A stretch of DNA of 64,000 nt, taken from contig NC_089325.1 of assembly GCF_036669915.1 (NCBI RefSeq), forward strand, positions 2,127,404-2,191,403, given 5' to 3'. Position 1 is the first letter of the stretch. Each line of letters starts with the position of its first letter. The notes beneath the pieces are model-generated. The model did no database searches. It saw only the letters and a list, made by a program, of their open reading frames with translations, and had not been told where the DNA came from. This stretch comes from Pocillopora verrucosa (Eukaryota; Cnidaria; Anthozoa; Scleractinia; Pocilloporidae). The position numbers and the translations under genes are program-made. Shown here one piece after another: positions 12,901-56,628 of this stretch.

Positions 12901-13131
12901 TTTTGTAGTGATATGCAGTTCTCCACGAGAGATAGTGATAACGACGTAAAACCGGACGGCAGCTGTGCTCAGAAGTTCAAAGGCGCCTGGTGGTACAGAG
13001 CCTGTCTGCATTCCAATCTAAACGGGTTGTATCTCAACGGAAGTCACTCCTCATATGCTAATGGTGTCAACTGGTTTCCTTTTAAAGGATATCTCTACTC
13101 ACTGAAACGTACAGAAATGAAAGTAAAGTAG
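9907..13131 (+). CDS. Lectin gene A: secreted PAN-EGF-fibrinogen (FReD) protein
   Basis: Four coding exons with GT-AG sites: 9907-10239 (phase 0), 11765-11879 (ends phase 1, donor A|GTAAGT), 12153-12606 (ends phase 2), 12909-13131. They join to 1125 nt, 374 residues. Residues 1-15 are a signal peptide with an AYA cleavage site. Residues 30-111 are PAN/apple-like with cysteines 56, 60, 66 and 83. Residues 114-149 form an EGF domain with six cysteines (114, 121, 127, 138, 140, 149). Residues 166-374 form a fibrinogen C-terminal domain with cysteines 168, 196, 320 and 333, GEFWLGND, the calcium loop DSDND (309-313), [13 protein letters not shown] and a YSLKRTEMK end. Proteins of this type (ficolin, tachylectin 5, FREP relatives) bind acetylated sugars outside the cell and often act in innate recognition; that role is inferred. 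Copy A has Leu after Cys333 where most other copies have His. Start chosen for the signal peptide shared by all copies. Confidence 0.9.
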
Positions 13132-14748
13132 ATCAGTGTTGTTGTTTCTTTTCTTTTTTCTTTTGATTTTTCACAAAGAGACTAGCTAGGTCCAGACCAC
13201 GGCCATAACACACTCCAGTTATCGATCCTTTTCGCATTTTTTATTAACGTATATAACGAAGCTACACATTGGTTTGTTGATCGGGCTTTTGAGCCCTGTA
13301 CAGCGGTTTACGTAATTTTAGGGCCATTTTCAATTCATCCTGTGGAGGTGTGAATTATAATGTGATTCGGAAAATTAGCGGCACCGCCAGAACCAGTTCA
13401 GTGCAGAACTAAAACAATTGGCGAGAGTGGGCCACCTCATGCGATACTAAAGGAGATAATTCATTGTTCTAATGGTCATTATTTTTTTAGCTGCTGGTAA
13501 TAGGAATGAATATAATCACAGTAGTTAACATATCGGTTACATATTGCATGGTCAAGATAAAGGAGCAAACTCAACAAAATTAACATGGGAAAGGGATTAA
13601 ATATTTGAAAAACTTTTAAAACATTTATTGAACTTAGAATAATGCAACTTTCTTCTCATAGAATATGTGTGTGAAATTATTATGATTTCATTATTTTCAA
13701 CTTATAATTCTGTTCACTTCCCGTTTTTTTTTTATTTGCCACTTTTTGAGTATTCATCTGTCTACATGTTAATGATTAAGTTGTCTTTGTTGATCCTGGC
13801 GCAAAGTAACATTTGTTGGGAAAGGGAGCCTAATGTAAAGGGTTTTAATGCATATGCCGTCAATTTTATTTAAGAAAACCATAACTTCATCTCTAGCTTC
13901 TGGTCTTACCATAGCCGTTTACTATTATTCCGGGTTTATTTCCTTAGTTATTGAATAATCATTTTTATAACAGTCTACAGTCACGTGGCTGTAGCATTAT
14001 ATCAAATCAAAAGATTAGTTCATATTATGCAGTTCTGTATAATAAAGCAGTTATGTAAAGCACTTGTCTACTGCTTGCTCTTTATTGTGGTCGTCCAAGT
14101 CCGAACGCACGGCACTTCATAATTACTGTGCGTAATAACTGCGAGCAGACACGTATCCTGACTTTAAAAAATCGAGAAATTATTTTCATAAATGGTGTGT
14201 TCTGCATCAGATGGTTGCCGCGGGAATGTCAAGCATATTTGCAAAATTGTCAGGAGTTGTACCATGCATCCAGCCCAGGCTGAGTTATTTGATAACAGGT
14301 CACATTAACTTGGGTAACTAAAAACGGTTACCCCTCCCCCCTCTCACCCTGCTAGAGAGAGGTTATGTCATAATCTCCTGCCTAGGTCCTACCTGAAATA
14401 GTCGTGGAAGGTCAGGATAGTAGATTAGATGTGTCAAGCTAACTATCACGCTACATATTCTGAATAAAGAGGAATAAAGAAACTGTTATTCTGCGTGAAT
14501 GGAAAAGTATAACAGGGTAATGAAGTATTATCAAGTGAGTCGATGACGTAAATTGGCCTGCGTAAAGAGTTTCAAAGCTGACGTTTCCAGGCTTAGCCTT
14601 TCGTCAGAGCGATTCGTCAGACCCTGGTCGATCGAACCTTTCGGTGTGTTGACTTGAGAGAAAACCGCAGTTAGTGAGTCGTGTCCAATATCTCCTCGGA
14701 TGAAACACTTGCCCTGAGGGCCTGGGGAACAGTTCTTGAACGATAAAA
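13132..14748 (+). other. 3' flank block of lectin gene A
   Basis: This block follows each full lectin copy in related form (for example after 31137, 42305, 48582 and 56628). A candidate polyadenylation signal ATAATAAAGCAG lies near 14037 and is shared by several copies about 0.9 kb past the stop, so it may mark the 3' end. An old half of a hammerhead-like element lies near 14460-14640. No coding exon is seen. Confidence 0.5.
14577..14610 (-). ncRNA. Hammerhead-ribozyme-like core in an old repeat
   Basis: On the minus strand the order is GCT, CTGACGA, a small hairpin AGGC-TAA-GCCT, GAAAC, GTC, AGC. This matches the hammerhead core (CUGANGA, stem II, GAAA, NUH site), with a 3-bp stem I (GCU/AGC). 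One extra unpaired base flanks stem II on each side, and helix III has no loop, so activity as a monomer is doubtful. Relative to the other copies, stem II differs on both arms in a compensating way. Confidence 0.4.
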
Positions 14749-18592: not shown

Positions 18593-18697
18593 ATGTACGT
18601 ACTAATATTATTCTTGATCAGTGTCACTGCTTATGCAACAAGTCGCATTTCAAACAGGTTTCCCAGATTTCAAGCCGCTAATTTTGGCGAGATGATG
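18593..18697 (+). pseudogene. Lectin copy B: 5' fragment fused to antisense ALDH
   Basis: The first 105 bases of exon 1 (signal peptide and the next 20 residues, ending NFGEMM) are intact and preceded by the standard dyad block. At 18697/18698 the sequence switches to the antisense of ALDH exon 6 with one shared base. The open frame runs on to 18835, giving a hypothetical 80-residue secreted chimera. All PAN cysteines, the EGF and the fibrinogen exons are missing from this copy. Confidence 0.9.
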
Positions 18698-21174
18698 CCA
18701 GGGCTGGACCAAGTTTCCAGGCTTGCATCAGCAGTGGGAAGTTCCATGGGATTATTTGACCGACAATGCCGACGGGTTCATGGCGGGTATAGGTTAAGGA
18801 ACTGCCATCTGTTGAGTGAATTAAACGATTCGTAACAATGAAAATATTACGATCAGCATCAAATGATAGAACACATTTCTTTGCTACCAGGTAAAACGTT
18901 TGAAAAGGTTTGTAGGGGGAATATAAGGAAGAGGTCCACAAACTTGATGTTCGCCTCTTGTTATCACCCTATGGGTAGAGCTGGGTGTTCCATGGAGGTT
19001 AGGCAGAAGCAAGCAGCAGGAAGCAAATAACTGGCATAAAAAATGATCAATTTTTTGAGAGTTAACCAACATCATTTGACAATGAACACTTCAGCAGATG
19101 TTAAATTGACATAAAATGCAAACACATTGATATCAATTATCTACTGAAGCTCCACAGGGTGTAGAATGAATAAAAGAAGACTGGACAAATATTTACAGCA
19201 CTACTGTTTTATGAGAGCATAAGTGAGCCTGTCTAAGATAAGCCAGTCTGTTTCGTTAGTGCACCACGTGCCTGTCTTTCAAAAAGTAACTACAGGCATA
19301 ATGCCTTAAAGCTGGGTTTCCAAGAGAATCACAACCAAGGAATGAACAAGCCTTACGTGAGGAGCTGACTGCCTATTATAGTAAAAGCTTAAAGAATTCT
19401 TGGTCACCAAAGACAACATGTGGTCATGTGGTTGCTAACTCGTTAAAATGAATATGCAAAATTCCATTCAGTTTATTTGCTTTCCATAACTTGAAAGTAA
19501 TAAACTTATCAATAGGAATTGTCTTGCCATGAATTTTGTCTGCCCACCCAGCATAGTATCGATAGCACTTATGGAAAAATCAATATTGAAAGAATCATTG
19601 AATGGCTTGCCATCGTCCAAAGTCTCTTATTTAGTACTTTATGACTGAATTGACAAAATGTACAAGGTTTTACACTCTGAGAACAACCAATGTTGTGACT
19701 ACGTTTTTCTTTTTACAGTCAGAGTTTGAACACCCACAGAATGATTTAATATATATGTTCTAATGCAACAAAATGAGGCTGGCTTTCTTAACAAGCTAAC
19801 TAAAACAAATCAAGAATGCCTCCTGACTAGCTACTCTAGCTTACAAGATTACATATAATTGAACTGCCTAGAACTGCCTGCTTTGCTGCAAAAAAACAAA
19901 ATTCACATGAAAATATGCAAACAAATAAGACAAAAATTGCCTCTATTTCACTTTGAAGTACAGCAGACATGCTTTACCCTTCATGTAGTCATCAGGCTAA
20001 AATATATCACAAATCATTCATTCCCTTCATTAATTTTGGTCAAGATGGCTTTATTTAATTTCTTCTTTTTCTTTTTTTTTGCATTTGTTCATGGAAAGTT
20101 TATATCATAATAACAGTTTTGATTGACTCTAGTAATTGAATAAAAGGAAAGAACTTACATTGTATCTCTAAAGTTTAGGACTATGATTGCTAATAATTTC
20201 ACTTTTACTCCAACAGAATGTTAATACTTACTGCAAGATAAGCTTAATGTTGTTCGAGCAAATCAGCCAGTCTGTTCAAAAGCTTTCCACATCCTGATAC
20301 ATCCATTGTTCTCCAAGGACTGCCTAGCTTAAAGGCCTCTTTGGCTGCCTTAACAGCAATATCAACATCTGCCTAAAGAACATATTGGTTATTAGCACTT
20401 CCACATGCCTCACCTACATAAGCAAGATTCCAGCATTTTGCAAATCTATCTCCCACAAGTCCATACATGTAAATCGCATTTTGTTTGTTCCCATGCTGAT
20501 AATTTGTAAAACATTTTATCTGTTTAGACTAAATTAAAATCCCTTCTGATCAAAAGTTTTTGCAATAAGCAGACAAGTGATGAGAATAAAGTAAAATATC
20601 AATTATGGGATTACTACTTGATCCCATACCAAATTCTTCAAATTGACATCATTATAATTGTATGGAAGACAGTAAGGAGAATTACATTGAGATCTTGGGA
20701 GTTAAAGGGCGAAAAATCTTTGGGAAAACCATATTCTTACTACTTATGATTAATAAATGTCTGTCTTTACCTTTATCTGAAAACTATACTCTGACTGCTT
20801 CCATCGTGAAAACAAGATAGCAAATGCTTACACAAACACTTAAAAAAGCTTTAGCAAAGTGTCACAGTGGATGTGAATTTTTCAAAATGATTTACCTGAT
20901 TGTACTTCACTTCAGGACTGTCATCAATCTTACACTGTCAAATAAAAAAAGACCCATGTCAGACAACTGTCATATTTATCCTGATATTTTACAAATTTTA
21001 ATAAACTATCAAAAAATGGAAGTTGATCAGATATGAAATCACTACACATAAAGGGATTACATTGTGCATTTATCTAAAGATAACAGGGCTGTGCCAGACT
21101 TCAGAACAAGATGAGGCAAGTTTCAAGCGCTGAAGGTGCAAGTCACTATGGGAGTCTGGCATACCCCTCCAGAG

Positions 21175-21736
21175 TATAGTACAGTTGACGCCAAGTGGTA
21201 TATATAGTCAATATGCTCAACTTTCCTTTTCTGCTCATGTACATCACATTGCTAGAGAGAAAATTTTAGTCAGAGAACAAAATGTGGAAAATATCTAACA
21301 AAAATTTTCAAAGCTGGAGGCTCAGAAATGCTCTTTTAAGCATTTTCCATGGCATTTTTCTCCAGAAAAGTCAATCTTGGGCCAAAATCAAGACAAGGCC
21401 TCATCTTGCCTCATGCTAACTATGGCCCTGGATAATTATAATGCAATTATGGGGTTTACTTGCATTTCTACATTAGTTTGCTTTCATGACTTTTTCCAAA
21501 ACCTCGAGATGACCTTTACCTCACAGAATTAGTGTGCTCCAATCAACAAATATAAAAGAACAATGCACATTGCCTATTTTAAATATTACAGTTGACGCCA
21601 TGTGGTATATATAGTTAATATACTTAGCTTTCCTTTTCTGCTCATGTACAATCATATTACTGGAGAGAAAAACTTAACTTGACTCCAGAAAAGTCAATCT
21701 TGGGCCAAAATCAAGACGAAGCAATTGCCTCGTCTT
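21175..21736. repeat. Locally repeated ALDH intron 1 segments
   Basis: The parental intron has one copy of the sequence around GTTGACGCCATGTGGTATAT (near 7290). Here it occurs near 21185 and 21594, and again near 23771 beyond the LINE. The stretch with TCTTGGGCCAAAATCAAGAC is also doubled (near 21377 and 21698). The LINE lies between two of the repeated pieces, so the insertion was accompanied or followed by local duplication. Confidence 0.7.
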
Positions 21737-23674
21737 TTTTTAAAATTTTTATTTTTATTTATTTATTTTTTATTTATTCCTCCAATTCCTAGCTGATACA
21801 TAGTTATGTAAATATAACATGATATAACATAGTATCAGATAAAGATTTACAAAGGAAAAAATGCGTATAACAGAAATTACAACACTTAAATTGAATTACA
21901 TTGTATATTGAAGGAGAGGAGAGGGACACATCTAGAAAAACTAATATTGTGCCCCTTAAAGTTATGTATAACAAAGGACTCGAGATTTTTAATAAAAAAG
22001 TAAAGGAAAAATGACAAATAGCTCAGAAAATTATAAAAGAGATAATGTTTCATTAGTATTGTGCTAGGTACCAGCCCAAAAGTGCTTTCTAAACATTTTT
22101 TTAGATGGTTTATCTCTAATGGATTGCGGAATATCATTCCAAAAGAAACTTCCAATGATGCTGGGGCCAAATCTCCTAAGACTAGTTCGAAATAAAGGTA
22201 TTGCAACTTGATTGGATGATGCACTGTGGGTAGTGTAATTATGTAGTTCAGATACTAACAAAACCTACTTTACTTTTACTTTCATGAAAAGTTTCTTAGT
22301 GTAAACTTTTCATGGTGGAAATAATCATAAAAAAGCATACATGTGTTCAGTTTAACAATATCAGGAAATTTCAAAAGGCCTAAGGATGTGTAGTGTGGAT
22401 TTATTGATTCCATTAAAGGAACATCATTTATAACATGAACTGCTTTGTTTTGTAACTTTATGATTTGAGACAATGGAGCATTATAATTATTTCCCCAAAG
22501 TGTACAAGCATAAGTAAGGTAAGGATAAATAAGAGAATAATACACACTTATAAGCATTGCTTTTGATATATAATGCTTCAACTTAACCATTATATTTATA
22601 TTTTTGGTCATTTTGCCACATATGTAGTCAATATGGTCGTGCCAAGTAAGGTGACAATCAATATACACACCAAGATATTTTACACAAAAGGACTTTTCTA
22701 AATGAACATTTGCTACAGTTAATGGTGGATAAAGATTGTAGCTTTCCTTTTGACGAGGCATAAAAATGAGAAACTTAGTTTTTGTAAAATTAACAATCAA
22801 TTTATTACTGCATAACCATTCGTAGACAGCTGGTAAATGATTGTTAATTTCACGCAATAAACTGTCAAGATCACTTCCAGAAGCAGTTGAAGATGTATCA
22901 TCAGCATATAATCTAGTAGAAAAAAGGTGGAAGACTTTGGAAGGTTACTAATGAAAATAGTAAACAGCAAAGGTCCTAGTATCAATCCTTGAGGCACACC
23001 AGTGGAGATAAAACGTGTAACAGAAGCAACACCATTTGCATGCACCTGCTGTTTCCTGTTACTTAAGTAAAATTGAAACCAGTTGTATTCACTTTGTTGT
23101 AATCCATAAGTTTATTTAGTGATATTTGATGGTTTACTGTATCAAATGCTTTACTTAAATCTAAGAATAAAGAAACCACATAAAGTCCTTTATCAACAGA
23201 AGAAGTTATTTCTTCAGTAAGGTCAATTAGACAATCAAAGGTTGTAAAACCTGTTCTAAATCCATAATGTTTTGAGGAAATCATGTTATTATTTGTAAAA
23301 TAGAACATCAGCTAATTAAAAATACATCTCTCAAATATTTTACTTATGGAAGAGAGAATTGAGATAGGTCAATAATTACTACATGCAAAACAAGAGCCTT
23401 GTTTAAAAACTGGAACAACTTTAGCACGTTTCATACTATCAGGAAAAATACCGTAGTTGATGGAAAGATTAAAAACAAATGTTAGGGGATGGTATATTTG
23501 AAGTGCTGCAGTTTTTAATAACAGTGGATGAATCTTATCAACCCTAATGACCTGTTTGTATCAAGACTTTCCAGTAATAAGAATACCTCTATTTCAGAGA
23601 CTTGTGTGAAGCAAAATTGTTTTTGTTTCTGAGAGAGATAAGAGGTTGCACTCTTATCAGATTTAGGCCGTTGT
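21737..23674 (-). mobile_element. 5'-truncated Jockey/CR1-like LINE, reverse transcriptase remnant
   Basis: Read on the minus strand, broken frames encode successive parts of a non-LTR reverse transcriptase: SISKIFERCI, SSKHYGFR, FLDLSKAFDTVNH (about 23130-23170), GVPQGLILGPLLF (about 22970-23010), then the YADDTSS catalytic box near 22895-22915 in a shifted frame, and the thumb/connection part ending near 22282 (VKYLGVYIDCHLTWHDHID). A further open stretch (22064-22261) follows. The 3' end is an A-rich ATAAA-type tail next to 21737. No endonuclease domain is present, so the copy is 5'-truncated. Frameshifts show it is dead. It is absent from the parental intron and so inserted after the duplication. 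Confidence 0.88.
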
Positions 23675-25402: not shown

Positions 25403-25433
<31 letters not shown>

Positions 25434-26676: not shown

Positions 26677-29600
26677 ATGCACGTACTAATATTATTCTTG
26701 ATCGGTGTCACTGCTTATGCAACAAGTCGCATTTCAAACAGGTTTCCCAGATTTCAAGCCGCTAATTTTGGCGAGATGATGGACGGGAAACAGCTCAACG
26801 GAAGCGTGATAAAGGAGGTAGAGGTGGAATCAGAAAGTTCTTGTAGATTGGAGTGTGTCAACGAAGAGCGATGTAAGTCTTACAACTTTGGAGGCAAAAA
26901 GAACAAACCTGAGGTATGGAAGTGCCAGATCAGTGACTCGGATCGATTTGAGAGGCCAGCTAAGGCCAACTTCATTGAGAACAAAGACTTCAGTTACAGA
27001 GGGATAAAGGTATTTGCAATGCATTTCAAAAGATTTTGACTACCACCTAGATATACGAACAAGTTCCTGAAAATGACAGTTAATGGTAAAAGAAAATAAG
27101 TTGATAAAATTTCAGAATTGCATCTAAGGAGGCTCTATAGTGTATTTTTCTCAATGTTGGCGAGCACGCCATCGTATTGTTATTGTAGAAAAGTTTTATG
27201 ATTTTGTCTTTCAAGGTCACTAAAAGCCATCAAAAGGCGATGAGCAAGGTTCAGACGATCGTTTGCTGTAGCAAATTTTATCAAAATGATTTTCGTGATA
27301 AAGCTAAGGCTCCACGAAGGGAGGCGCTCGCCAGTTATAATTCTTCAACTTCGATGAAATCTTTCAAAATGTTCATGATTTGTGAAATTTGTCCTGCCGA
27401 TCATTTAAAAGTTGGAGAAAAAGGGTAACAAATTAAATTAAATCAAATTTGGTCCTATGAATTTTTTTTATCAACAGGCACTAGGAAGGGCACAAACATG
27501 TTTAATGGTCCAACAAATCTTAGGAAATTCCATCTGAGGAAACGCCATAAATCGTGCTTAAAAGATCCCTAATTTCTCTGTCGCAAAACATTACGTAATG
27601 ACATCGCGTTTTGGCAATCTTTCCCACTGGGTTTTGTTTTCGGTTGACCTCTTTTTCAGGCGTATTGAGCCGCCACGCTATTTTGTCACTTTAAAGGCTC
27701 CCACTATTTGACTCCCACTATCTTGACTCTGATGATGACTTCCGCTCAGGTTGTCGAAACGTCAGTCACCACTACCGACAAAAGTTCTTCTCAGGACTAC
27801 ACTCACCCGGACGATCAAACTACACTATTACATGTTACCCCCGGGTTCAAACCATTTACTGTAAGGCTCCCACTATGTTCACACCCAGATCTCGCGCGAT
27901 CAAAAAACCCTATGGAGCCTCCTTAAACGACAAATATAAAAAAAAACGCAAAATTGAAGCAGAAACGTTCTTTCAAGCATTTTCACAAAACATTAGAGAA
28001 TCATAGAGAACTCTCTTTCATTACTAGCCACAAAGTTTAGTTAAGAAGTTTTTTTTTTCCGATTGAAAGCTAGAGATTATCTCAGTTCGTCATAACATAA
28101 AACGACCTCGTAGATTGACAATGGCGCAATGGCGCTGCTATTTAACAAGTCGAGAGTAGTCTAGCGTGGTCTATACTCTTAGCGACAAAGATATTGGTCA
28201 TCACATTGGTCAGAGAGCTGATAAAGCTATTGTGTGACAATAGACGCGAGCAGCCGACATCGACAAATTGGCCAATCAAATTGCGACATTGCTGCTAATT
28301 GTGGCAAAAAAATTTCAGTTTCCAAGCGTATTGTAGTAGATTGGCTAATTCTTTTGTTATCTGTATGGTTTAGACTAAAACAGTCACATATCAAGCTCTT
28401 TCCCCAGTGCGACGAACATTTGTTTTTTTCGGTTCCAGGTGTACGCAACCACTAACCCCACGTAGTGCGCATGCTCTCCTTTACGAATTTTTAAAATGGT
28501 GGACAAGCCCAAGAGGGAAATAAAAAAAAAAGCGATTTTGCAATGAATACTCAACATACACCCTCGTTAGAAAGGCAAATCTACGGAAGAAAGATACAAA
28601 ACTGTATGATATTGAGATCGATATGATATTAAATCGATACCGAGGGCCCGTTTCCATCTTGCTAAGAAGTGCATTTAATTGCCTTCCGCCACGATTAATA
28701 GCTTTCTTGACAGCTTTCTGAAGACAGAATACTTTCTTTCTGAAGACTTCTGATATGCAGCTATTGATTATATTACACCTCGTATACCTGACTGTTCAAA
28801 CACTTTGTTTACGATGGTTGAAAGGACCTACTCATGGTTCTCCGTCTTCGTCTTTACATTGCTTTGAAATAGTATAGATTAGTAAGCTGAAACGAAAAAT
28901 TAATCAGAGAAGTTTACGAAAAATACAGCAAACAAGCTTAAAAAAGGCATTTATTTAGACTTCATACTTCAACGAACTTCACAAATCTTACTTGTTTATC
29001 TTGTAAGTAAACGATGGCAGATTAATTCCCGAAGCGCTTACTGAGTTTCCCGATCCCTTTCCAACTGCTTTCACACTTACAAAACAGGAAAAAATCAAAA
29101 AGAGGAAGATACAGCTGTTTTGAAACGCCATTTGACGAGGGTAAATCTGCTTTTTGTTCGACACTTTACATATCAAAACAAAGGAAATTTGTTCCTCTTT
29201 TTGATTCTGGTAGTACATTTTTAATTTGCGCCTGCGTAAAGGAGATATCGCCCGAGACCCTTCGCTCGGTCGTGTTTTGATCAAAAACGCCTTGTCAATT
29301 TCACGCAACCGCTCGGAGAAAAGGTAAAAATGACGAGGGAAAAACTTTACCTTCAAGTTAGAAAATTAGCGAAATAGAAAGCCACAATATTGTAGTTTGA
29401 TATTTCAGAGGTACATTGAGTGCTTTTTCCGTAGAGAATCCGTACGATGCTAAAACATTCGAAAATTACACTCGATTTGAGTGGGGTGTTGAAGTGGGCG
29501 TGGTCACCACATTCATGTTGAGACTACTTGTACCCCATGAGTTTGATATGCTCCTCTGTGTCGTTGAAAGCGGGGGATATTTACCTCGTAGGCCACTGAG

Positions 29601-31137
29601 CGTCTCGCTAAATATCCACCACTATCCACCTCTACTTCAATAAACAATTGTTAATAATAACTTCATCATCATCACCAATATCATCGTCGGCATGATTGAT
29701 ATATTATCACCATCGTTATAAATTTTATTACTCTTACTAATATTATTATCATTATTGCTGTTGTTTACAATCAGAGCGTATGTGAACGAGATAAGTCAGA
29801 TTGTGGCAAGAACGAAATCTGCATCGTAGACATTCGAACCAACAGTGCACGATGCATTTGCAAGGATGGTTATACGGGAAAGCCCTGTAGTAAGTGAAAT
29901 AATAATGACAATAATAATGCAAAGAAAAAAAGCAAAGAAAACCGGCACAATAGTGATTTCACTGCTCGAACTTAGAAATTTCACACCTCGAGCACTAGGT
30001 GTACACAACTTCTATATTTGTTGATCAACTACTCCTCTCAATAAATTTCCTTTGTTGTTGTAATTGTTGTTGTTGTTGGTATTTTACAAACGTTATAATC
30101 ATTCATTATCAAGAGAAACACTACCCCCATGACTAAGTAAAAATAAATTACTTTTACTATAGTCCAAGCGTACGATTCAAATCAAATTTTTCGTCAACCA
30201 ATAGAACCCAAAAGTTGTGCTCTACTTTATCAAGATGGTGTCACATCTAGTGGCGTGTACACTATTAATCCAGATGGCGGAAATGCCATGCAAGTGTTGT
30301 GTGACATGACCACGAACGGTGGAGGTTGGACTGTTTTTCAGAGACGTTTGAACGGCTCTGTTGATTTCTATCGAGATTGGTCGTCCTACAAAAATGGCTT
30401 CGGAGATTTACACGGCGAGTTCTGGCTTGGAAATGACAATCTTCATCGTTTGACAGCCGCTGGTAACGTTTCGTTGAGAGTTGACCTGGAGGACTTCGAA
30501 GGTAACATCACATACGCTGAGTACGCGACATTTAAGGTGGCGGACCGGACAGATAAATACCGAATTCTAATTGGTGGATACAGTGGGACAGCTGGAGACG
30601 GTTTGAATGTACAAAGGTATAATAAACAGTAGTTTAAAAACGAGGTTATTAAAAGTAAAATTTCCGATAATTTGCAGGCAAAAATTTTAATATCTATTCG
30701 TTTCGAGACTTGTGTGAGTAAAGCGATGGAATCTTAAAAATATTCTCAGTTCATTCATATTTTATTTATTTATTTATTTATTTATTTTTTTGTATCTGCC
30801 ATTTTCGATTTTGGCTTATGAAATGTTGAACTAGTGTACCAAAAGCTCAAATTCTATCACAATATTTAATTATAAGATCTACAAACCGTATTTTATGGTG
30901 TTAACTTTTTGTAGTGACATGCAGTTCTCCACAAGAGATAGTGACAACGACATAAAACCGAACGCCAGCTGTGCTCAGCAGTTCAAAGGCGCCTGGTGGC
31001 ACAGGAGCTGTCATCATTCCAATCTAAACGGGTTGTATCTCAATGGAATTCACTTCTCAATGGCTGATGGCGTCAACTGGATTCCTTTTAAAGGATATTA
31101 CTACTCACTGAAACGTACAGAAATGAAAGTAAAGTAG
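26677..31137 (+). CDS. Lectin gene C: secreted PAN-EGF-fibrinogen (FReD) protein
   Basis: Exons 26677-27009, 29775-29889, 30163-30616 and 30915-31137, same phases as gene A and 374 residues. This is the duplicate partner of gene A, carried in with the ALDH pseudogene. Intron 1 is enlarged to 2.77 kb by a hammerhead-like element (27708-27862) and a TIR-like insertion (28388-29550). All EGF and fibrinogen cysteines, the DSDND calcium loop and the YSLKRTEMK end are kept. Differences from A cluster in the last exon: the GAWW motif is followed by HRSCHH instead of YRACLH, and the pocket strand reads [10 protein letters not shown]. The dyad block is at 26529. Ligand and immune role are inferred from the family. 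Confidence 0.9.
27708..27862 (+). mobile_element. Short hammerhead-like element in intron 1 of gene C
   Basis: Absent from the same intron of other copies. Flanked by AAGGCTCCCACTAT at 27694-27707 and 27863-27876, again 14 bases. A third, imperfect copy of the target (TTGACTCCCACTAT, 27708-27721) directly follows the left repeat, so the true element may start at 27722. The sequence is unrelated to the palindromic elements except for the ribozyme-like core. Confidence 0.65.
27724..27768 (+). ncRNA. Hammerhead-ribozyme-like motif with 5-bp stem I
   Basis: TGACT (27724-27728) and AGTCA (27764-27768) pair perfectly as stem I around CTGATGA (27729-27735), a stem II with GAC/GTC (27737-27739 with 27753-27755), GAAAC (27756-27760) and cleavage triplet GTC (27761-27763). 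All conserved core bases of the hammerhead are present. The departures are one extra base before stem II and a helix III with no loop. Minimal hammerheads of this kind are known from Penelope-like elements and small retrozymes and act as dimers. Confidence 0.55.
28388..29550. mobile_element. TIR-like insertion in intron 1 of gene C
   Basis: Compared with intron 1 of A, E and G, about 1.16 kb is inserted between AAACAGTCA and CTCCTCTGTG. Its ends are inverted: CATATCAAGCTC at the left and GAGTTTGATATG at the right. No transposase is seen. It carries a signal-peptide exon on the minus strand (28992-29131). The target duplication is not clear. Confidence 0.5.
28992..29131 (-). pseudogene. Signal-peptide first exon carried by the insertion
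   Basis: On the minus strand a start codon at 29131 opens a strong hydrophobic signal sequence (MAFQNSCIFLFLIFSCFVSV) followed by a Gly/Ser-rich stretch ending LPSFTYKIN, then a consensus donor AA|GTAAGA. It looks like exon 1 of a secreted-protein gene captured by the element. No second exon is recognised nearby. The open frame extends upstream to 29356 without another likely start. Confidence 0.35.
30770..30796. repeat. TTTA microsatellite in intron 3 of gene C
   Basis: About six tandem TTTA units, then a T run. Intron 3 of the other copies has a different T-rich tract at this place. Confidence 0.8.
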
Positions 31138-34540: not shown

Positions 34541-35562
34541 ATGCACGTACTAATATTATTCTTGATCAGTGTCACTGCTTATGCAACAAGTCGCATTTCA
34601 AACAGGTTTCCCAGATTTCAAGCCGCTAATTTTGGCGAGATGATGGACGGGAGACAACTCAACGGGAGCGTGATAAAGGAGATAGAGGTGAAATCAGAAA
34701 GTTCTTGTAGATTGGAGTGTGTCAACGAAGAGCGATGTAAGTCTTACAACTTTGGAGGCAAAAAGAGCAAATCTGAGAGATGGAAGTGCCAGATCAGTGA
34801 CTCGGATCGATTTGAGAGGCCAGCTAGGGCCAACTTCATTGAGAACAAAGAGTTCAGTTGCAGAGGGATAAAGATATTTGCAATGCATTTCAAATGACTA
34901 TGACTACCGCCTAGATATACGAAAAAATTCGAGAAAAAGACAATTAATGGTAAGAAATGATGTGATAAAATTGCAGAATTGCACCCAGGGAAGTTCAGAA
35001 GGGTTTTTGCTCAATGTTGGCGTGCACGCCATCGTATTGTTTTTGCAGAAATGATTTTTCTTTTCAAGGTCACTAAAAGCCGTCAATAGGCGATGAGCAA
35101 GATTCGGATCATCGTTTGCTGCAGTAAATATTATCAAAATGATTTTCATTATCAAGCTAAGGCTTGACGAAGAGATGCGCATACTTTATCTAGATGGTGT
35201 CACATCTAGCGGTGTGTACACCATCATTCCAGATGGCGGAAATCCCATACAAGTGTTATGTGACATGACCACGAACGGTAAAGCTTGGACTGTTTTTCAG
35301 AGACGTTTGAACGGCTCTGTTGATTTCTATCGAGATTGGTCGTCCTACAAAAATGGTTTCGGAGATTTGAAGGGCTTGGAAATGACAATCTTCATCGCGT
35401 AACAGTCGCTGGTAACGTTTCTTTGAGAGTTGACCAAGATGACTTCGAAGGTAACATCAGATACACTGAGTACGCGACATTTAAGGTGGCGGACCAGACA
35501 GATAAATACTGTATTCTAATTGGTGGATACAGTGGGACTGGAGACGGTTTGAATAAACAAAG
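34541..35562 (+). pseudogene. Lectin copy D: exon-deleted pseudogene
   Basis: Exon 1 (34541-34873) is open, but its donor GT is now AT (34874-34875) and the PAN domain has a Tyr-to-Cys change near its end (FSCRGIK). A deletion then joins intron 1 to the inside of exon 3 near 35182, removing the EGF exon and the first fibrinogen cysteine. A 10-base deletion near 35370 removes the EFW of GEFWLGN and breaks the frame. After 35562 intron 3 is joined directly to the 3' flank (near 35645), so the last exon is gone. The in-frame ATG at 34487 is not used as the start because no other copy has an equivalent. Dyad block at 34398. Confidence 0.92.
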
Positions 35563-36153
35563 GTATAATAAACAGTAGTTTAGAAATGAGGTTATTGAGA
35601 GTAGATGTCCGATAATTTGCAGGCAAATATTTTTATATCTATTCAGCCATAACACACTCCAGTTATTGATCCTTTTCGTACCAGTCTTACGTCGCATTTT
35701 TATTTACGTATATGACGAAGCTACTCATTGGTTTATTGATAGAGCTTTTGAGCCCTGTACAGCGGTTTACCATATTTAGGGGCCATTTTCAATTCATCCA
35801 ATAGAGGACCGCTTCAACCAGTTCAAAGCAAAACTTAAAACCAATCGCGAAATGGCCACCTTATGCAATGAAAAGCAATATTCACTTATGATTGTAATGG
35901 CCATTATTTATACGCTGCTGGTAATATGAACAAAGATCATCACAGGAGTTGGTATATCAGTTAGATATTGCATGGTCAAGATAAAGGAGCAAACTTAGCG
36001 AAGGTAACATGGGAAAGCTGCATTAAAATTTGGATCACTTTTAAAACATTTATTGAACTTAGGATAACGCAACCTCCTTCTAAAAGAATATGTGTGTGAA
36101 ATAATTATTTTCAGCATATACTTCTGCTCAATCCCTGTTTGCTTTCATATTTG

Positions 36154-38852: not shown

Positions 38853-41800
38853 ATGCACGTACTATTATTATTCTTGATCAGTGTCACTGCTTATGCAGCA
38901 AGTCGGATTTCAAACACGTTTCCCAGATTTCAAGCCGCTAATTTTGGCCAGATGATGGACGGGAGACAACTCAACGGGAGCGTGATAAAGGAGATAGAGG
39001 TGGAATCAGAAAGCTCTTGTAGATTGGAGTGTGTCAACGAAGAGCGATGTAAGTCTTACAACTTTGGAGGCAAAAAGAACAAATCTGAGAGATGGAAGTG
39101 CCAGATCAGTGACTCTGATCGATTTGAGAGGCCAGCTAAGGCAAACTTCATTGAGAACAAAGATTTCAGTTACAGAGGGATAAAGGTATTTGCAATGCAT
39201 TTCAAAAGATTTTGACTATCACCTAGATATACGAACAAGTTCCTGGAAATGACAATTAATGGTAAATAATGCGATAAAATTGCAGAATTGCACTTAAGGA
39301 GACTCTGTGAGGTTTTTGCTCAATGTTGGCGCGCACGCCATCGTATTGTTTTGGTAGAAAAGTTTTATGATTTTTCTTTTCGATGGCATTGAAAGCCATC
39401 AAAAGGCGATGAGCAAGGCTCGGACAATCGTTTGCTGCAGTAAATATTATCAAAATTATTTTCCTTATGAAGCTAAGGCTCCACGAAGGGAGGCGCTCGC
39501 CAGCGATAATTCTGCTTTGCAATTTGCTTCGATGAAATATTTCAAAATGTTCACAATTTGGGAAATTTGTCCTGCCGATCATTAAAAAGTTGGGAAAAAA
39601 AGGAATTACAAAGGCAGCTTCCTCGCTATTTGCAATTTTGTGTCACCTTTCTATATCTCAAATTTGGTCCTACGAATTTTTTTTATCAAAAGGCACTAGG
39701 AAGGGCACAAATGTGTTTAATGGTCCGACAAATCTTAGGAAATTCCATCTGAGGAAGCGCGATAAATCTTGCTTAAAATATCCCTATTTTCTTTGTTGCA
39801 AAACATTACGTAATGGAATAGAACTTCACTAAGATCTACACCTGAGCATGCGTAAAATTTCCAATCTGTCGCCTTTTAGCAATCTTTCCCACTGTGTTTT
39901 GTTTTCGGTTGACCTCTTTTTTCAAGCGTATTCAGCCGCCACGTTATTTTGTCACTTTAAAAGCTCGCGCTATGTTCGCACCAGGTTCTCGCGCGGTCAA
40001 AAAACCCTATGGAGCCTCCTTAAACGACAAATATAAAAAGTCGCGCAAGTTCAAGCATTTTTTACAAAACATTAGAGAATCATAGAGAACTCTCTCTCAT
40101 TACTAGCCACAAAGTTTAGTTAAGAAGATTTTTTTTTCGATTGAAAACCATAGATTATCTCAGTTCGTCATAACATAAAACCACCTAGTAGATTGACAAT
40201 GCCGCAATGGTGCTGCTACTTAACAAGTCGACAGTAGCTTAGCGTGGTCTGTACTCTTATCGACAAAGATATTGGTCATCACATTGATCAGAGTGCTGAT
40301 GAAGCCATTGTGTGACACATGGACGCGAGCAACCGACATCGACAAACTGGCCGATCAAATTGCGACATTGCTGCTAATTGTGATGAAAAAATCGCTGTAT
40401 CCCTTATTGGTATATACCACAAAGGTGAAGAGTGCTTTTCGCGCTTTGATTGGCTGGTTAAGAGGCGATTAGCAAATACTTCTCACCTCCGAGCAGCCCG
40501 AGAGACAAAGTCGCGCGTCAACTTGTCAGTTTCCAAGCGTATTGTGGTAGATTGACTGATTCTTTTGGTATATGTGTTGTATATACTAAAACAGTTACTC
40601 TCCTCTGTGTCTTTGAAAGCGGTAGATATTTACCTCGCGGGCTACTTAACGGCTCGCTAAATATTCACCACTATCCACTCCCACTTCGGTAAACAATTGT
40701 TAATAATGATAATGACATCATCATCATCATCAATATAATCGTCGGCATCATTGATATATTATCATTATCATTATAAATTTTATTACTCTCACTATTATCA
40801 TTATTATTATTGTTGTTGTTGTTATTTACAATCAGAGCGTATGCGAACGAGATGAGTCAGATTGTGGCAAGAATGAAATCTGCATCGTAGACATTCGAAC
40901 CAACAGTGCACGATGCATTTGCAAGGATGGTTACACAGGAAAGCCCTGTAGTAAGTGAAAATAATAATGACAATAATGTTGCAAACAAAAAATGCAAAGA
41001 AAACCGGCGCAATAGTGCTTTCACTGCTCGAACTTTCACACCTCGAGCACTAGCTGTACACAACTTCTATATTTGTTGATCAACCCCTCATCTCAATAGA
41101 TTTCCTTTTTGTTGATGGTATCTTAGAAACGTAAGGATCATTCATTATCAAGAGAAACACTTACCCCGTGACTAAGTAAAAATAAATTACTTCTACTATA
41201 GTCCAAGCGTACCATTCAAATCAAATTTTTCGAAAACCAACAGAACCCATCGCCAAATGTGTGCTCTACTTTATCAACATGGTGTCACATCTAGCGGTGT
41301 GTACACTATTAATCCAGATTCAAATCAAATTTTTCGTCAACCAGGAGAACCCAAAAGTTGTGCTCTACTATATCAAGATGGTGTCACATCTAGCGGCGTG
41401 TACACTATTAATCCAGATGGTGGAAATGCCATGCAAGTGTTGTGTGACATGACCACGAACGGTGGAGGTTGGACTGTTTTTCAGAGACGTTTTAACGGCT
41501 CTGTTGATTTCTATCGAGATTGGTCGTCCTACAAAAATGGCTTCGGAGATTTACACGGCGAGTTTTGGCTTGGTAATGACAATCTTCGTCGTTTGACAGC
41601 TGCTGGTGACGTTTCGTTGAGAGTTGACCTGGAGGACTTCAAAGGTAACATCAGATACGCTGAGTACGCGACATTTAAGGTGGCGGACCAAACAGATAAA
41701 TACCGAATTCTAATTGGTGGATACAGTGGGACAGCTGGAGACGGTTTGAATGTACACAGGTATTATAAACGGTAGTTTAGAAATGAGGTTGTTGAAAGTA

Positions 41801-42305
41801 AAATGTCCGATAATTTGCAGACAAATATTTTTACATCTATTCGTTTCGAGACTTGTGCGAGTAAAGAGATGGAATCCTAAAAATATTCTCAATTCATTTA
41901 TTTCTTACTTATTTTTCCTTTTCCTTTTTTTTTTGTTTTTTTTGTTTTTTTTTTTATCCGCCATTTTCAGTTTTGGCTTATGAGATGTTGAATTAGTGTA
42001 CCAAAAGTTCCAATACTATTACAATATTCATCCAATTTAATAAGATCTACAAACCGTATTTTGTGGTATTAACACTTTGTAGTGATATGCAGTTCTCCAC
42101 AAGAGATAGTGACAACGACATAAAACCAAACAGCAGTTGTGCTCAGAAGTACAAAGGCGCCTGGTGGTACAGTGACTGTCATCGATCCAATCTAAACGGG
42201 TTGTATCTCAGCGGAAGTCACTCCTCAATGGCTGATGGCGTCAACTGGATTCCTTTTAGAGGATATCAATACTCACTGAAACGTACAGAAATGAAAGTAA
42301 AGTAG
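38853..42305 (+). pseudogene. Lectin copy E: near-intact gene with frame-breaking exon duplication
   Basis: Exons 38853-39185, 40836-40950, 41202-41759 and 42083-42305, with all splice sites intact. Exon 3 is 104 bases longer than in A, C and G because the segment running from SNQIFR to TINPD is present twice (starts 41216 and 41320). The first copy has lost one base near 41250, so the frame entering from the EGF exon meets a TGA inside exon 3, while the downstream frame reads through both repeats. Either the copy is dead or an unseen splice choice restores the frame; I found none. The rest of the fibrinogen domain is intact, with WWYSDCHR and [10 protein letters not shown] in the pocket half. 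Dyad block at 38702. Confidence 0.8.
41216..41423 (+). repeat. Internal 104-bp tandem duplication in exon 3 of copy E
   Basis: Two head-to-tail copies, each from TCAAATCAAATTTTTCG to the end of ACTATTAATCCAGAT. The units differ at several bases; the first is closer to copy F (it has CCATC after GAACC) and the second is closer to A and C, which suggests unequal exchange between different lectin copies rather than simple slippage. Confidence 0.85.
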
Positions 42306-46347: not shown

Positions 46348-48582
46348 ATGCACCTACTAATGTTATTCTTGAACAGTGTCACTGCTTATGCAGCAAGTCG
46401 CATTTCAAACAGGTTTCCCAGATTTCAAGCTGCTAATTTTGGCCAGATGATGGACGGGAAACAGCTCAACGGGAGCGTGATAAAGGAGATAGAGGTTGAA
46501 TCAGAAAGCTCTTGTAGACTGGAGTGTGTCAACGAAGAGCGATGTAAGTCTTACAACTTTGGAAGCACAAAGAAGAAATCTGAGAGATGGAAGTGCCAGA
46601 TCAGTGACTCAGATCGATTTGAGAGACCAGCTAGGGCCAACTTCATCGAGAACAAAGAGTTCGGTTACAGAGGGATAAAGGTATTTGGAATGCATTTCGA
46701 AAGATTTTGGCTACCACCTAGATACACGAATAAGTTCCAGAAAATGAGAATTAATGGTAAAAAAAATAATAATGTGATAAAATTGCAGAATTCCACTTAA
46801 GGAGGCTCTGTGGGGTTTATTGCTCAATGTTGGAGCGCACGCCATCGTATTGTTTTGCTTTACAAGGTCACTAAAAGCCATCGAAAGCCGATGAGCAAGG
46901 TTCGGATAATCGTTTGTTGTAGTAAATCATTTTGCGTACACAGAAATATACGTGGTGAGCTTTCTCGCGCGAAATTCCCAAATCCGAACACGACTTTCGT
47001 AAAAATTCACCTTACCTAGACACCTACAAAATGATTTTCGTTATGAAGCTAAGGCCCCACGAAGAGAGGTGCTCGCCAGTAACATTCTGCTTGGCAATTT
47101 GCTTCGGTGAAATCTCTCAAAATGTTCACAATTTTTCCTGCCGATCATTAAAAAGTCGGGAAAAAAGGGATTACAAAGGAACTTTCCTCGCTATTTGGTC
47201 CTATGAATTGTTTTATCAACAGGCACTAGGGAGGGCACAAATATGTTTAATGGTTTCACAAATTTTAGGATATTCCATCTGAGGAGACGCGATAAATCTT
47301 GCTCAAAAGATCCCTATTTTCTATCTGCTGTTATTGTTGTTTACAAACAGAGCTTATGCGAACGAGATAAGTCAAATTGTAGCAAGAACGAAACCTGCAT
47401 CGTAGACATCCGAACCAACAGTTAACGATGCATTTGTAAGGATGGTTACACAGGAAAGCCTTGTGGTAAGTGGAAATAATAATGACAATAATGTTGCAAA
47501 GAAAAAAAGCAAAGAAAACCGGCACAATAGTGCTTTCACTGCTCGAATTTAGAAATTTCACACCTCGAGCCCTAACTGTACACAACTTCTGTATTTTTTG
47601 ATCAACCCCTCCTCTCAATAAATTTTCTTTGTGGTTGTAGTTGTTTTTGTTGATGGTGTTTTAGGAACGTAATGATCATACATCATCTCGAGAAACACTA
47701 CCCCCCGTGACTAGCTGAAAACAAATGACTTCTACTATAGTCCAAGCGTACCATTCCAATCAAATTTTTCGTCAACCAACAGAGCCCATCCCTAAAAGTT
47801 GTGCTCTACTTTATCAAGATGGTGTCACATCAAGCGGTGTGTACACTATCAATCCAGATGGCGGAAATCCCATACAAGTGTTGTGTGACATGACCACGAA
47901 CGGTGGAGCTTGGACTGTTTTTCAGAGACGTTTGAACGGCTCTATTGATTTCTATCGAGATTGGTCGTCCTACAAAAATGGCTTCGGAGATTTGAAGGGC
48001 GAGTTCTGGCTTGGAAATGACAATCTTCATCGCTTAACAGTCGCTGGTAACGTTTCGTTGAGAGTTGACCTGGAGGACTTCGAAGGTAGCATCACATACG
48101 CTGAGTACGCGACATTTAAGGTGGCGGACCAAGCAGATAAATACCGAATTCTAATTGGTGGATACAGTGGGACAGCCGGCGACGGTATGAATAAACAAAG
48201 GTATAATATACAGTAGTTTAGAATTGAGGTTGTTGAAAGTAAAATTTCCGATAAGTTGCAAGCAAACATTTTTATATCTATTCGTTTCGAGACTTGTGCG
48301 GGTAAAGAGATGGAATCCAAGATTTGCAAACCGTATTTTATGGTGTTAACATTTTGTAGTGACATGCAGTTCTCCACAAGAGATAGTGACAACGACATAA
48401 ATCCGGACGGCAGCTGTGCTCAGCAGTTCAAAGGCGCCTGGTGGTACAGTTACTGTCATCATTCCAATCTAAACGGGTTGTATCTCAATGGAAGTCACTC
48501 CTCAATGGCTGATGGCGTCAACTGGATTCCTTTTAAAGGATATTACTACTCTCTGAAACGTACAGAAATGAAAGTAAAGTAG
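46348..48582 (+). pseudogene. Lectin copy F: stop codon in the EGF exon
   Basis: Exons 46348-46680, 47351-47465, 47741-48200 and 48360-48582, splice sites intact. In the EGF exon, GCA of the other copies is TAA (47423-47425), so the product would stop at residue 135, leaving signal peptide, PAN domain and half an EGF. Exon 3 is 6 bases longer than in A (two extra codons, IP, before KSC). F belongs to a distinct class with H: PAN residues STKKKSE, short intron 1 (670 bp) holding an inserted intergenic fragment, and a TGTG|GTAAGT EGF donor. Intron 3 is only 159 bp. The fibrinogen exons are otherwise undamaged, so the stop is probably recent. Dyad block at 46200. Confidence 0.85.
46926..47030. 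repeat. Intergenic fragment inserted in intron 1 of copy F
   Basis: About 105 bases from TTTTGCGTACACAGAAATAT to GACACCTACAAA match part of the lectin upstream block (for example 44785-44880). Copy H has the same insert at about 63249-63352; copies A, C, E and G do not. Confidence 0.75.
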
Positions 48583-53028: not shown

Positions 53029-56000
53029 ATGCACGTACTAATATTATTCTTGATCAGTGTCACTGCTTATGCAACAAGTCGCATTTCAAACAGGTTTCCC
53101 AGATTTCAAGCCGCTAATTTTGGCGAGATGATGGACGGGAGACAACTCAACGGGAGCGTGATAAAGGAGATAGAGGTGGAATCAGAAAGCTCTTGTAGAT
53201 TGGAGTGTGTCAACGAGGAGCGATGTAAGTCTTACAACTTTGGAGGCAAAAAGAACAAACCTGGGATATGGAAGTGCCAGATCAGTGACTCGGATCGATT
53301 TGAGAGGCCAGCTAGGGCCACCTTCATTGAGAACAAAGAGTTCAGTTACAGAGGGATAAAGGTATTTGCATTGTATTTCAAAAGATTTTGACTATCATCT
53401 AGATAGATAGTTCCAGAAAATGAAAATTAATGGTAAAAATAAATAAGTTGATAAAATTGCAGAATTGCATCTAAGGAGGCTCTATAGTGTATTTTTCTCA
53501 ATGGTGGCGCCCACGCCATTGTATTGTTTTGTAGAAAAGATTTATGATTTTGCCTTTCAAGGTCACTAAAATCCATCAAAAGGCGATGAGCAAGGTTCGG
53601 ACAATCGTTTGCTGTAGCAAATTTTATCAAAATGATTTTCGTGATAAAGCTAAGGCTCCACGAAGGGAGGCGCTCGCCAGTTATAATTCTTCAATTTCGA
53701 TGAAATCTTTCAAAATGTTCATAATTTGTGAAATTTGTCCTGCCGATCATTTAAAAGTCGGAAAAAAAGGGGGTTACAAAGGCACTTTCCTCGCTATTTT
53801 CAATTTTGTGTCATCTTTTTCTATCTCAAATTTGGTCCTTTGAATTTTTTTTATCAAAAGGCACTAGGAAGGGCACAAATATGTTTAATGGTCCAGCAAA
53901 TCTTACTAAATTCCATTTGAGGAAACGCAATAAATCTTGCTCAAAAGATCCCTATTTTCTTTGTCGCAAAACATTACGTAATGGAATAGAACTTCGCTAG
54001 GATCTACATCTCAGCATGCGTAAACTTTGGAGTCTGTCGCGTTTTGGTAATCTTTCCCACTGTGTTTTGTTTTCGGTTGACCTCTTTTTTCAGGCGTATT
54101 GAGCCGCCACGTTATTTTGTCACTTTAAAGGCTCCCGCTATGTTCACACCCAGATCTCGCGCGATCAAAAAACCCTATGGAGCCTCCTTAAAAGACAAAT
54201 ATAAAAAAATGCGAAATTGTGAATCATAGAGAAATCTCTCTCATTACTAGCCACAAAGTTTAGTTAAGAAGTTTTTTTCTCCGATTGAAAGCTAGAGATT
54301 ATCTCAGTTCGCCATAACATGAAACGACCTAGTAGATTGACAATGGCGCAATGGCGCTGCTATTTAACAAGTCTAGAGTAGCTTAGCGTGGTCTATACTC
54401 TTACTCACAGAGACGCGAGCAGGCGACATCGACAAATTGGCCAATCAAATTGCGACATTGCTGCTAATTGTGGTAAAAACATTTCAGTTTCCAAGCGTAT
54501 TGTAGTAGACTGGCTAACACTTTTGTTATATGTGTGGTATAAACTAAAACAGTTACTCCCCTCTGTGTCGTTGAAAGCGGTGGATATTTACCTCGTAGGC
54601 CATTCAACGGCTCGTCAAATATCCACCACTATCCACCTCTACTTCAAAACATTAGGGAATCATAGAGAACTCTCTTTCATTACTAGCCACAAAGTTTAGT
54701 TAAGAAGTTTTTTTTCTCCGATTGAAAGCTAGAGATTATCTCAGTTCATCATAACATAAAACGACCTAGTAGATTGACAATGGCGCTGCTATTTTACAAG
54801 TCGAGAGTAGCCTAGCGTGGTCTATACTCTTATCGACAAAGATATCGGTCATTACATTGGTCAGAGAGCTGATAAAGCCATTGTGTGACACAAAGACGCC
54901 AGCAGCCGACATCGACAAATTGGCCAATCAAATTGCGACATTGCTACTAATTGTGGTAAAAAGATTTCAGTTTCCAAGCGTATTGTAGTAGATTGGCTAA
55001 TTCTTTTGTTATCTGTATGGTATAAACTAAAACAGTTACTCTCCTCTGTGTCGTTGAAAGCGGTGGATATTTACCTCGTAGGCCACTCAAAGGCTCACTA
55101 AATATCCAGCACTATCCACCTCTACTTCAATAAACAATTGTTCATAATAATAATGACATCATCATCATCAATTTAATCGTCGGCATCATTGATATATTAT
55201 CATCATCATTATAAATTTTATTACTCTCACTAATATTATTATCATCATCGTTGTTGTTTACAATCAGAGCGTATGCGAACGAGATAAGTCAGATTGTGGC
55301 AAGAACAAAATCTGCATCGTAGACATTCGAACCAACAGTGCACGATGCATTTGCAAGGATGGTTACACGGGAAAGCCCTGTAGTAAATGAAATAATAATG
55401 ACAACAATAATGCAAAGAAAAAAAGCAAAGAAAACCGGCACAATAGTACTTTCACCGCTCGAACTTAGAAACTTCACACCTCGAGCACTAGGTGTACACA
55501 ATTTCTATATTTGTTGATCAACCCCTTCTCTCAATAAATTTCCTTTGTTGTTGTAATTGCTGTTGTTGTTGGTATTTTCCAAACGTAATAATCATTCATT
55601 ATCAAGAGAAACACTACCCCCATGACTAAGTAAAAATAAATTACTTTTACTACAGTCCAAGCGTACGATTCAAATCAAATTTTTCGTCAACCAGGAGAAC
55701 CCAAAAGTTGTGCTCTACTTTATCAAGATGGTGTCACATCTAGCGGCGTGTACACTATTAATCCAGATGGCGGAAATGCCATGCAAGTATTGTGTGACAT
55801 GACCACGAACGGTGGAGGTTGGACTGTTTTTCAGAGACGTTTGAACGGCTCTGTTGATTTCTATCGAGATTGGTCGTCGTACAAAAATGGCTTCGGAGAT
55901 TTACACGGCGAGTTTTGGCTTGGAAATGACAATCTTCGTCGTTTGACAGCCGCTAGTAACGTTTCGTTGAGAGTTGACCTGGAGGACTTCGAAGGTAACA

Positions 56001-56628
56001 TCAGATACGCTGAGTACGCGACATTTCAGGTGGCGGACCAGACAGATAAATACCGTATTCTTATAGGTGGATACAATGGGACAGCTGGAGACGGTATGGA
56101 TAAACAAAGGTATTATAAACAGTTTAGAAATGAGGTTATTGAAAGTAAAATGTGCGATAATTTCCAGGCAAATATTTTTATATCTATTCGTTTCGAGACT
56201 TGTGCCAGTAAAGAGATGGAATCCTCAACATATTCTCAGTTCATTCATTTTCTATTTATCTTTCCTTTTTTTCGTATCTGCCACTTTCGATTTTGGCTTA
56301 TGAGATGTTGAACTAGTGTACCAAAAGCTCAAATTCTATCACAATATTCACCCAATTTAATCATAAGATCTACAAATCGTATTTTATGGTGTTAACTTTT
56401 TGTAGTGATATGCAGTTCTCCACGAGAGATAGTGACAACGACATACAACCAGACGTCAACTGTGCTCAGCTGTTCAAAGGCGCCTGGTGGTACAGTGACT
56501 GTCATCATTCCAATCTAAACGGGTTGTATCTCAACGGAAGTCACCTCTCATTTGCTATTGGTGTCAACTGGCTTCCTTTTAAAGGATATTACTACTCACT
56601 GAAACGTACAGAAATGAAAGTAAAGTAG
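53029..56628 (+). CDS. Lectin gene G: secreted PAN-EGF-fibrinogen (FReD) protein
   Basis: Exons 53029-53361, 55268-55382, 55656-56109 and 56406-56628; 374 residues, all domains and cysteines present. The EGF donor is A|GTAAAT, weaker than the GTAAGT of the other copies. Intron 1 (1.9 kb) contains a tandem duplication. The last exon is the most divergent from A: 13 amino-acid differences in 73 residues, including LF for KF after CAQ, SDCHH for RACLH, and HLSFAIGVNW for HSSYANGVNW in the likely ligand pocket. An in-frame ATG at 52930 is not used because it precedes the signal peptide and is not shared. Dyad at 52916. Confidence 0.9.
54222..55131. repeat. Tandem duplication in intron 1 of gene G
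   Basis: Two direct copies (about 54222-54645 and 54655-55131), each running from GAATCATAGAGAA to CACCTCTACTTCAA. The second matches intron 1 of gene A closely. The first lacks about 70 bases (the part with CATTACATTGGTCAGAGAGC). Confidence 0.85.

Follow-up and report, generated by a model that had tools for sequence, protein, structure and literature searches.

We analysed a 64,000-nucleotide stretch of the genome of the coral Pocillopora verrucosa (NC_089325.1, positions 2,127,404 to 2,191,403; hereafter the window), which holds part of a tandem array of genes for lectins that combine PAN, EGF-like and fibrinogen C domains. We consider it likely, at a probability of about 80%, that positive diversifying selection has repeatedly altered the residues forming the lining and rim of the S1 acetyl/glycan pocket in these lectins. 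We observed directly the structure of the genes, an excess of replacement change at specific sites, the location of these sites at homologues of ligand-contact residues, and diversification of the C-terminal part of the domain in three other arrays.

The genome (353 Mb in 52 contigs) has at least 187 matches to the fibrinogen C domain. The window contains copies A, C, E, F and G, exons 1 and 2 of copy H, a pseudogene (D) and a fragment (B). The array extends for about 59 kb past the window end, with copies H to O, including the partial copy K, reaching C14:2,250,571. As a whole it comprises 12 four-exon copies, 10 of them with clean frames; the exceptions are F, with a stop in exon 2, and E, with a partial duplication and indels at the start of exon 3. 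The four exons of every full copy are bordered by GT/AG, save that the start of exon 3 in E could not be placed. Exon 1 encodes an apparent signal peptide (judged by eye) and the PAN domain, exon 2 an EGF-like module, and exons 3 and 4 the fibrinogen C domain, with one base completing the last codon of exon 3 before exon 4 is read; spliced copy A has 374 residues. The Pfam scan covered the exons of copy A, one of the 12. PF00147 matched its joined exons 3 and 4 over positions 5–219 of 221 (E 5.8e-76), a whole fibrinogen C domain (fibrinogen-related domain, FReD); PAN_1 matched exon 1 with 36.7 bits (cut-off 21.4), and EGF models fell just below threshold on exon 2 (PF00008, 21.4 against 21.5 bits). 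The fibrinogen domain resembles those of ficolin-1 (E 1e-75) and tachylectin-5A (TL5A; E 1e-52).

A reading made from the letters of the window alone (the sequence-only reading) had claimed an excess of replacement changes in exon 4, the ligand-pocket exon. Its coordinates for exon 4 of copies A (12909..13131), C (30915..31137), E (42083..42305) and G (56406..56628) were exact, and we reproduced its counts of codons with replacement and silent differences, 13 and 2 for A against G, and 12 and 3 for C against E. Changes of two or more bases, which it had also reported, occur in four codons of the first pair and five of the second. However, because replacement sites outnumber silent ones about fourfold in exon 4, a ratio of 12:3 is no excess in itself, and raw per-codon counts without site normalisation are misleading and weak as proof. 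By the Nei–Gojobori method (NG86), the ratio of replacement to silent changes per site (dN/dS) in exon 4 was 1.65 for A–G and 0.77 for C–E, the latter pair including the damaged copy E. Across the 12 copies it was 0.38, 0.30, 0.39 and 0.69 for exons 1 to 4, respectively, and dN exceeded dS in 15 of 66 pairs in exon 4, as against 2 of 66 in exon 1 and 2 of 66 in exon 3. Exon 3 is indeed less variable than exon 4 (mean pairwise distance 0.051 versus 0.105), as claimed, but this contrast is partly non-selective, because exon 4 exceeds exon 3 in silent divergence too (0.15 versus 0.10, with silent sites unsaturated); introns 2 and 3 and the 3′ flank diverge by 0.09–0.12 on average. The sequence-only reading had stated that a dN/dS near or below 1 in exon 4 would speak against it. 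Such values are what we found (0.69 by NG86 and an omega of 0.86 under model M0), but the signal resides in about one fifth of the codons. Since the conserved framework masks the pocket sites, exon-wide dN/dS is uninformative as a single test, and we set it aside as the sole one.

We fitted site models with our own GY94-type codon likelihood and F3x4 frequencies (models M0, M1a, M2a, M7, M8 and M8a); site posteriors are naive empirical Bayes. For exon 4, twice the log-likelihood difference (2ΔlnL) between M1a and M2a was 22.9, with 19% of codons at an omega of 4.1, and that between M7 and M8 was 25.6. We rely on these two comparisons, as the M8a fit of exon 4 had not converged (lnL −869.35, lower than −869.01 for M7) and its statistic is overstated. 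The signal persisted on the ten intact copies (22.6, with E and F dropped) and on eight non-redundant copies (24.4). None of 60 null sets simulated under M1a on a single tree reached 22.9 (maximum 6.5), and neither did any of 60 simulated with heavy recombination, as a three-block mosaic of different trees (maximum 15.3). Exon 4 has, therefore, a significant class of codons with omega above 1 that is robust to recombination, none of the 120 simulations being as high. Five codons of exon 4 carry at least five amino acids, where neutral simulations (400 for each of two calibrations) gave a mean of 0.84–1.08 and a maximum of 4; at the same time, 59% of its codons are invariant, as against 27–29% under neutrality. 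The finding is sound; what carries it is this evidence at the level of sites, not the counts.

We took the ligand-contact residues of FIBCD1 from the crystal papers (PMC3908420, PMC10825690) and mapped them by alignment, the FIBCD1 sequence being confirmed against PDB 4m7f. The eight contacts, with their exon-4 codons, are Y405 (23), R412 (30), N413 (31), C414 (32), H415 (33), Y431 (50), A432 (51) and W443 (62). The set is literature-derived, though it was fixed after the alignment had been viewed. H396 and E398 were excluded because a one-residue indel makes their alignment unsure, and the homologues of K381 and H382 fall in exon 3. Pooled dN/dS was 5.8 at the eight contacts, 2.2 at the contacts with their neighbours (16 codons) and 0.38 in the other 57 codons of exon 4, the last being close to that of exons 1 and 3. 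Replacement change was higher than in random codon sets both for the 16 codons (P = 1e-4) and for the eight contacts (P = 0.01). Some of the selected codons (17, 45, 47 and 57) are not neighbours of the listed contacts.

Several of these positions differ between copies. Seven amino acids occur among the 12 copies at codon 31, the N413 homologue. At codon 50, the homologue of Y431, which hydrogen-bonds the acetamide in FIBCD1, there is Tyr in two copies, Phe in four, Met in five and Glu in one. The H415 homologue is Leu in four of 12, the A432 homologue is Gly in one of 12, and the Y405 homologue is Phe or Tyr; the pocket Cys (C414) and the W443 homologue, a Tyr as in ficolins, are invariant in all 12. 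The conserved S1 pocket of acetyl-binding FReDs (Y405, C414, H415, Y431, A432 and W443 or Tyr) is, accordingly, not retained across the array. A residue other than Tyr at the Tyr431 place in 10 of 12 copies suggests that ligands probably differ among the copies and from those of FIBCD1. Human ficolin-2, however, has Phe at this place, so Phe need not abolish acetyl binding. The scaffold is kept in each copy: the two aspartates of the DND motif, Cys19 and Cys32 of exon 4, SNLNGLYL and YSLKRTEMK. We take the DND aspartates to be calcium ligands, and Cys19 and Cys32 presumably form a disulfide.

Three further fibrinogen-domain arrays of the genome (C8, C3 and C1b) also diversify their C-terminal part, whereas a fourth (C6) is conserved. 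In C8, whose domain is a different one encoded by a single exon (20 copies fetched, 19 of them unique, and 17 unique in the C-terminal part), M0 omega was 1.47 with a 2ΔlnL of 52 for the C-terminal part, and 0.69 with 8.8 for the N-terminal part. In C3 (eight unique of nine in exon 4), exon 4 had an omega of 1.57 and a 2ΔlnL of 29.4, and exon 3 an omega of 0.30 with no significant signal; in C1b (12 of 13 loci, L068 being dropped as a partial match), the values were 0.51 and 25.8 for exon 4 and 0.34, again non-significant, for exon 3. The selected positions recur: of the 11 in the window array, 10 are shared with C3, which has 18 (P = 7e-7), and five with C1b, which has nine (P = 0.004). Cut-offs here were 0.5 for the window array and 0.8 for C3 and C1b. 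These two arrays were numbered onto the window array by hand, and the comparison left out the insertion column. We rejected C6 as additional support: its apparent M2a signal was produced solely by a C-terminal tail that is not homologous, and once this was trimmed away the domain proved conserved (omega 0.11; 4 of 11 fetched loci), which makes C6 a contrast. The array at C6:2.00–2.35 Mb also includes several further copies with stops or shortened domains. Usable matches were found in three of six C5 loci. The first C1 array (L047–L057) gave matches in 7 of 11 loci, a trace in L055 and none in three, with L053 clipped at the locus end and L056 divergent. These two groups and the seven loci L077–L083 were left out of the codon models.

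Several results weigh against diversifying selection focused on the pocket. Exon-wide dN/dS is below 1, with dN above dS in just those 15 of 66 pairs, and the bootstrap interval of dN − dS for the 16 codons spans zero (−0.010 to 0.311, P 0.03). The nominal cut of 5.99 was passed by 8 of 60 mosaic and 3 of 60 single-tree null sets, so that nominal chi-square p-values overstate significance to some extent. Nor is exon 4 the only exon with such change. Exons 1 and 2 were non-significant by M1a/M2a and M7/M8, but exon 1 reached p = 0.048 by M8a versus M8, and exon 3 has a signal at four codons (2ΔlnL 21.1, 2.8% of codons), which on the 10 intact copies, without E and F, was 6.7 (p = 0.035). The highest exon 3 codons are 131 and 151, and codon 151 aligns with Lys381 of FIBCD1, the counterpart of Arg186 in TL5A; Arg186 contacts N-acetylglucosamine, but for Lys381 of FIBCD1 no ligand contact was observed (PMC3908420, PMC10825690). 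The agreement of positions between arrays concerns C3 and C1b only, as C8 has no WWYxxCH motif and its sites are unmapped. Finally, the recombination null simulations covered the window array alone, and all comparisons are between paralogous copies of one genome assembly.

An innate-recognition role of the window array is plausible, an immune function and the ligands being what we infer rather than observe. A fixed fibrinogen scaffold with a varied pocket rim would give each copy a different binding surface; the copies are probably secreted, their fold suggests that they may bind different glycans, and the selecting partners could be microbes or symbionts. It is also possible, at rather less than even odds, that the diversification is real but serves another role, such as gamete or self/non-self recognition, the choice of algal symbionts, or a function in mucus or prey capture. 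Coral mannose-binding-lectin homologues are reported to bind both bacteria and Symbiodiniaceae (PMC8260672). None of the present evidence separates these roles.

The sequence-only reading had offered diversifying selection or targeted gene conversion. Under the latter, the pocket variants of exon 4 would have been shuffled among copies without sustained selection for replacement. Distances in exon 4 are indeed uncorrelated with those of other segments (rank correlation −0.31 to +0.13), whereas the correlations among exons 1 and 3 and introns 2 and 3 are 0.68–0.86. The pairwise homoplasy index (PHI) across the joined segments was significant (p = 5e-4), and the tree of exon 3 with intron 3 was mildly rejected by the exon-4 data (approximately unbiased (AU) test, p = 0.034). 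Inside exon 4, however, PHI gave no recombination signal (p = 0.53 and 0.74), and the exon-4 tree was not rejected by the exon 3 and intron 3 data (AU p = 0.21). After these tests we dropped the exchange of an exon-4 cassette, which the uncorrelated distances had prompted. Exon 4 is not alone in its uncorrelated distances, since the far 3′ flank behaves in the same way, and the discordance is exaggerated by a shortened intron 3 in F, H and M. The tree of the 3′ flank is in strong conflict with the other two, which conflict only mildly with each other; silent differences in exon 4 correlate weakly with intron 3 (0.21, Mantel p = 0.12). Moreover, conversion relocates existing variants, which would not account for codons with five to seven amino acids and few silent changes. 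As an illustrative pair, N and O show 8.6% divergence in exon 4 (16.5 replacement changes and 2.5 silent ones), as against 3.7% for intron 3 and 2.7% for the 3′ flank; J–N, by contrast, has a dN/dS of 0.59. The lack of a PHI signal within exon 4 favours diversifying selection, which the site models, the simulations, the literature-derived pocket set and the C-terminal recurrence in three arrays also support. Overall, the data are better explained by selection on new replacements than by exchange, and shuffling by conversion appears unlikely.

Relaxed constraint, under which a disused pocket drifts freely after duplication while some copies decay, is very improbable, because, for all the signs of decay (pseudogene D, fragments B and K, the stop in F, the damage in E) and the rarity of the acetamide-bonding Tyr at the Y431 place (two of 12 copies, with Leu for H415 in four), drift yields a dN/dS of at most 1 and not 5.8 at contacts or a site class near 4, too many exon-4 codons are invariant for neutrality, intact copies alone give the same site-model result, and the same positions diversify in other arrays.

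We compared the window array with known systems. Like ficolins, TL5A and FIBCD1, its copies have a fibrinogen C domain, and most or all of them carry WWYxxCH, SNLNG and A-x-GVNW; unlike these proteins, they have PAN and EGF-like modules ahead of it. Tachylectin-2 has a fold different from that of fibrinogen-domain lectins. In the coral Oculina, it is described as having high replacement variation and being under positive selection (PMC2880987); it is thus likewise an anthozoan lectin under positive selection, but belongs to another family, and its variation is among alleles across a genus, not tandem copies. Cnidarian ficolin-like proteins (CniFL) are also anthozoan, multicopy and fibrinogen-domain-bearing. 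They number one to seven per species and were recognised by the joint presence of collagen, immunoglobulin (Ig) and fibrinogen domains (PMC5094078), whereas copy A, the one copy of 12 scanned, has PAN_1, a sub-threshold EGF and Fibrinogen_C, with no collagen or Ig match at E ≤ 0.001. FREPs of the mollusc Biomphalaria are likewise fibrinogen-domain families, some in tandem clusters, thought to be immune. They couple fibrinogen to Ig superfamily (IgSF) domains (PMC7588048), and somatic variation has been reported for them (PMC4346834). The one or two IgSF domains that precede fibrinogen in FREPs have no counterpart in copy A, the sole copy scanned, where no Ig match was found, and variation in the window array is between germline copies and located in the fibrinogen pocket. 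In the anemone Aiptasia, a genome-wide polymorphism study names techylectin and ficolin as two of its balancing-selection candidates (PMC4772690), which we count in favour of diversifying selection.

The individual copies, all on the plus strand, are laid out as follows. Exon 1 of copy A (9907..10239) encodes the signal peptide (by eye) and PAN/Apple domain, with the PAN_1 match and a GT donor; exon 2 (11765..11879) is the EGF-like module with AG/GT borders, exon 3 (12153..12606) covers the N-terminal two thirds of the fibrinogen C domain, and exon 4, the ligand-pocket exon, terminates in TAG. Copy B is an exon 1 fragment only (18593..18697; blastn identity 95.2% over 105 of 333 bases). Exons 1 to 3 of copy C lie at 26677..27009, 29775..29889 and 30163..30616, upstream of the exon 4 given above. 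Pseudogene D (34541..35563) consists of exon 1 and a gapped, frame-shifted exon 3; exons 2 and 4 were not found in it. Copy E has exons 1 and 2 at 38853..39185 and 40836..40950, and an exon 3 (41201..41759) whose 5′ end carries a partial internal tandem duplication and indels, leaving its true start unplaced. The canonical acceptor of this exon leads to a shifted frame, and copy E is, therefore, probably not intact and non-functional, despite its open exon 4. Copy F comprises exons at 46348..46680, 47351..47465, 47741..48200 and 48360..48582; its EGF-like exon 2 has a stop codon that its close relatives H and M do not have, and its exon 4 is the fifth in the window, outside the pair counts of the sequence-only reading. 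Exons 1 to 3 of copy G are at 53029..53361, 55268..55382 and 55656..56109. Exons 1 and 2 of copy H are at 62670..63002 and 63674..63788, with exons 3 and 4 beyond the window end. Exon 2 of copy N (115440–115554 on the window scale, past its end) has lost two EGF-like cysteines, both to Tyr, and the gene is still open.

Outside the lectin exons, the sequence at 4204–8815 upstream of A is repeated over several kilobases at 19276–25298 upstream of C, mostly at 91–98% identity. An AT-rich stretch between A and C carries a reverse-transcriptase fragment on the minus strand (22282–22944; RVT_1, below the curated cut-off), and copy G is followed by an open frame of 275 residues on the plus strand (57659–58486) with no Pfam match at E ≤ 0.001. 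Elsewhere in the genome, the GFP family has 74 matches (best solved relative amFP486), with two large clusters at C1:28.36–28.79 Mb and C1:0.67–0.88 Mb.

Diversified immune lectins are known; it is less expected that several arrays of one cnidarian genome share a pattern focused on the pocket, and a limited search of the open-licence literature turned up no account of such selection on the pocket in cnidarian arrays of fibrinogen-domain genes. We tentatively suggest that the arrays may constitute an antibody-like germline repertoire of lectins, in which distinct arrays, on a rigid scaffold, independently diversify many shared positions of the pocket rim in the manner of hypervariable loops, and so hold many glycan specificities at once. 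If this is true, an animal without adaptive immunity would assemble a wide germline repertoire for recognition by tuning the same sugar pocket again and again while the scaffold stays fixed, and the copies would offer a natural set of pocket variants from which to learn the residues that set the glycan specificity of ficolin-type lectins.
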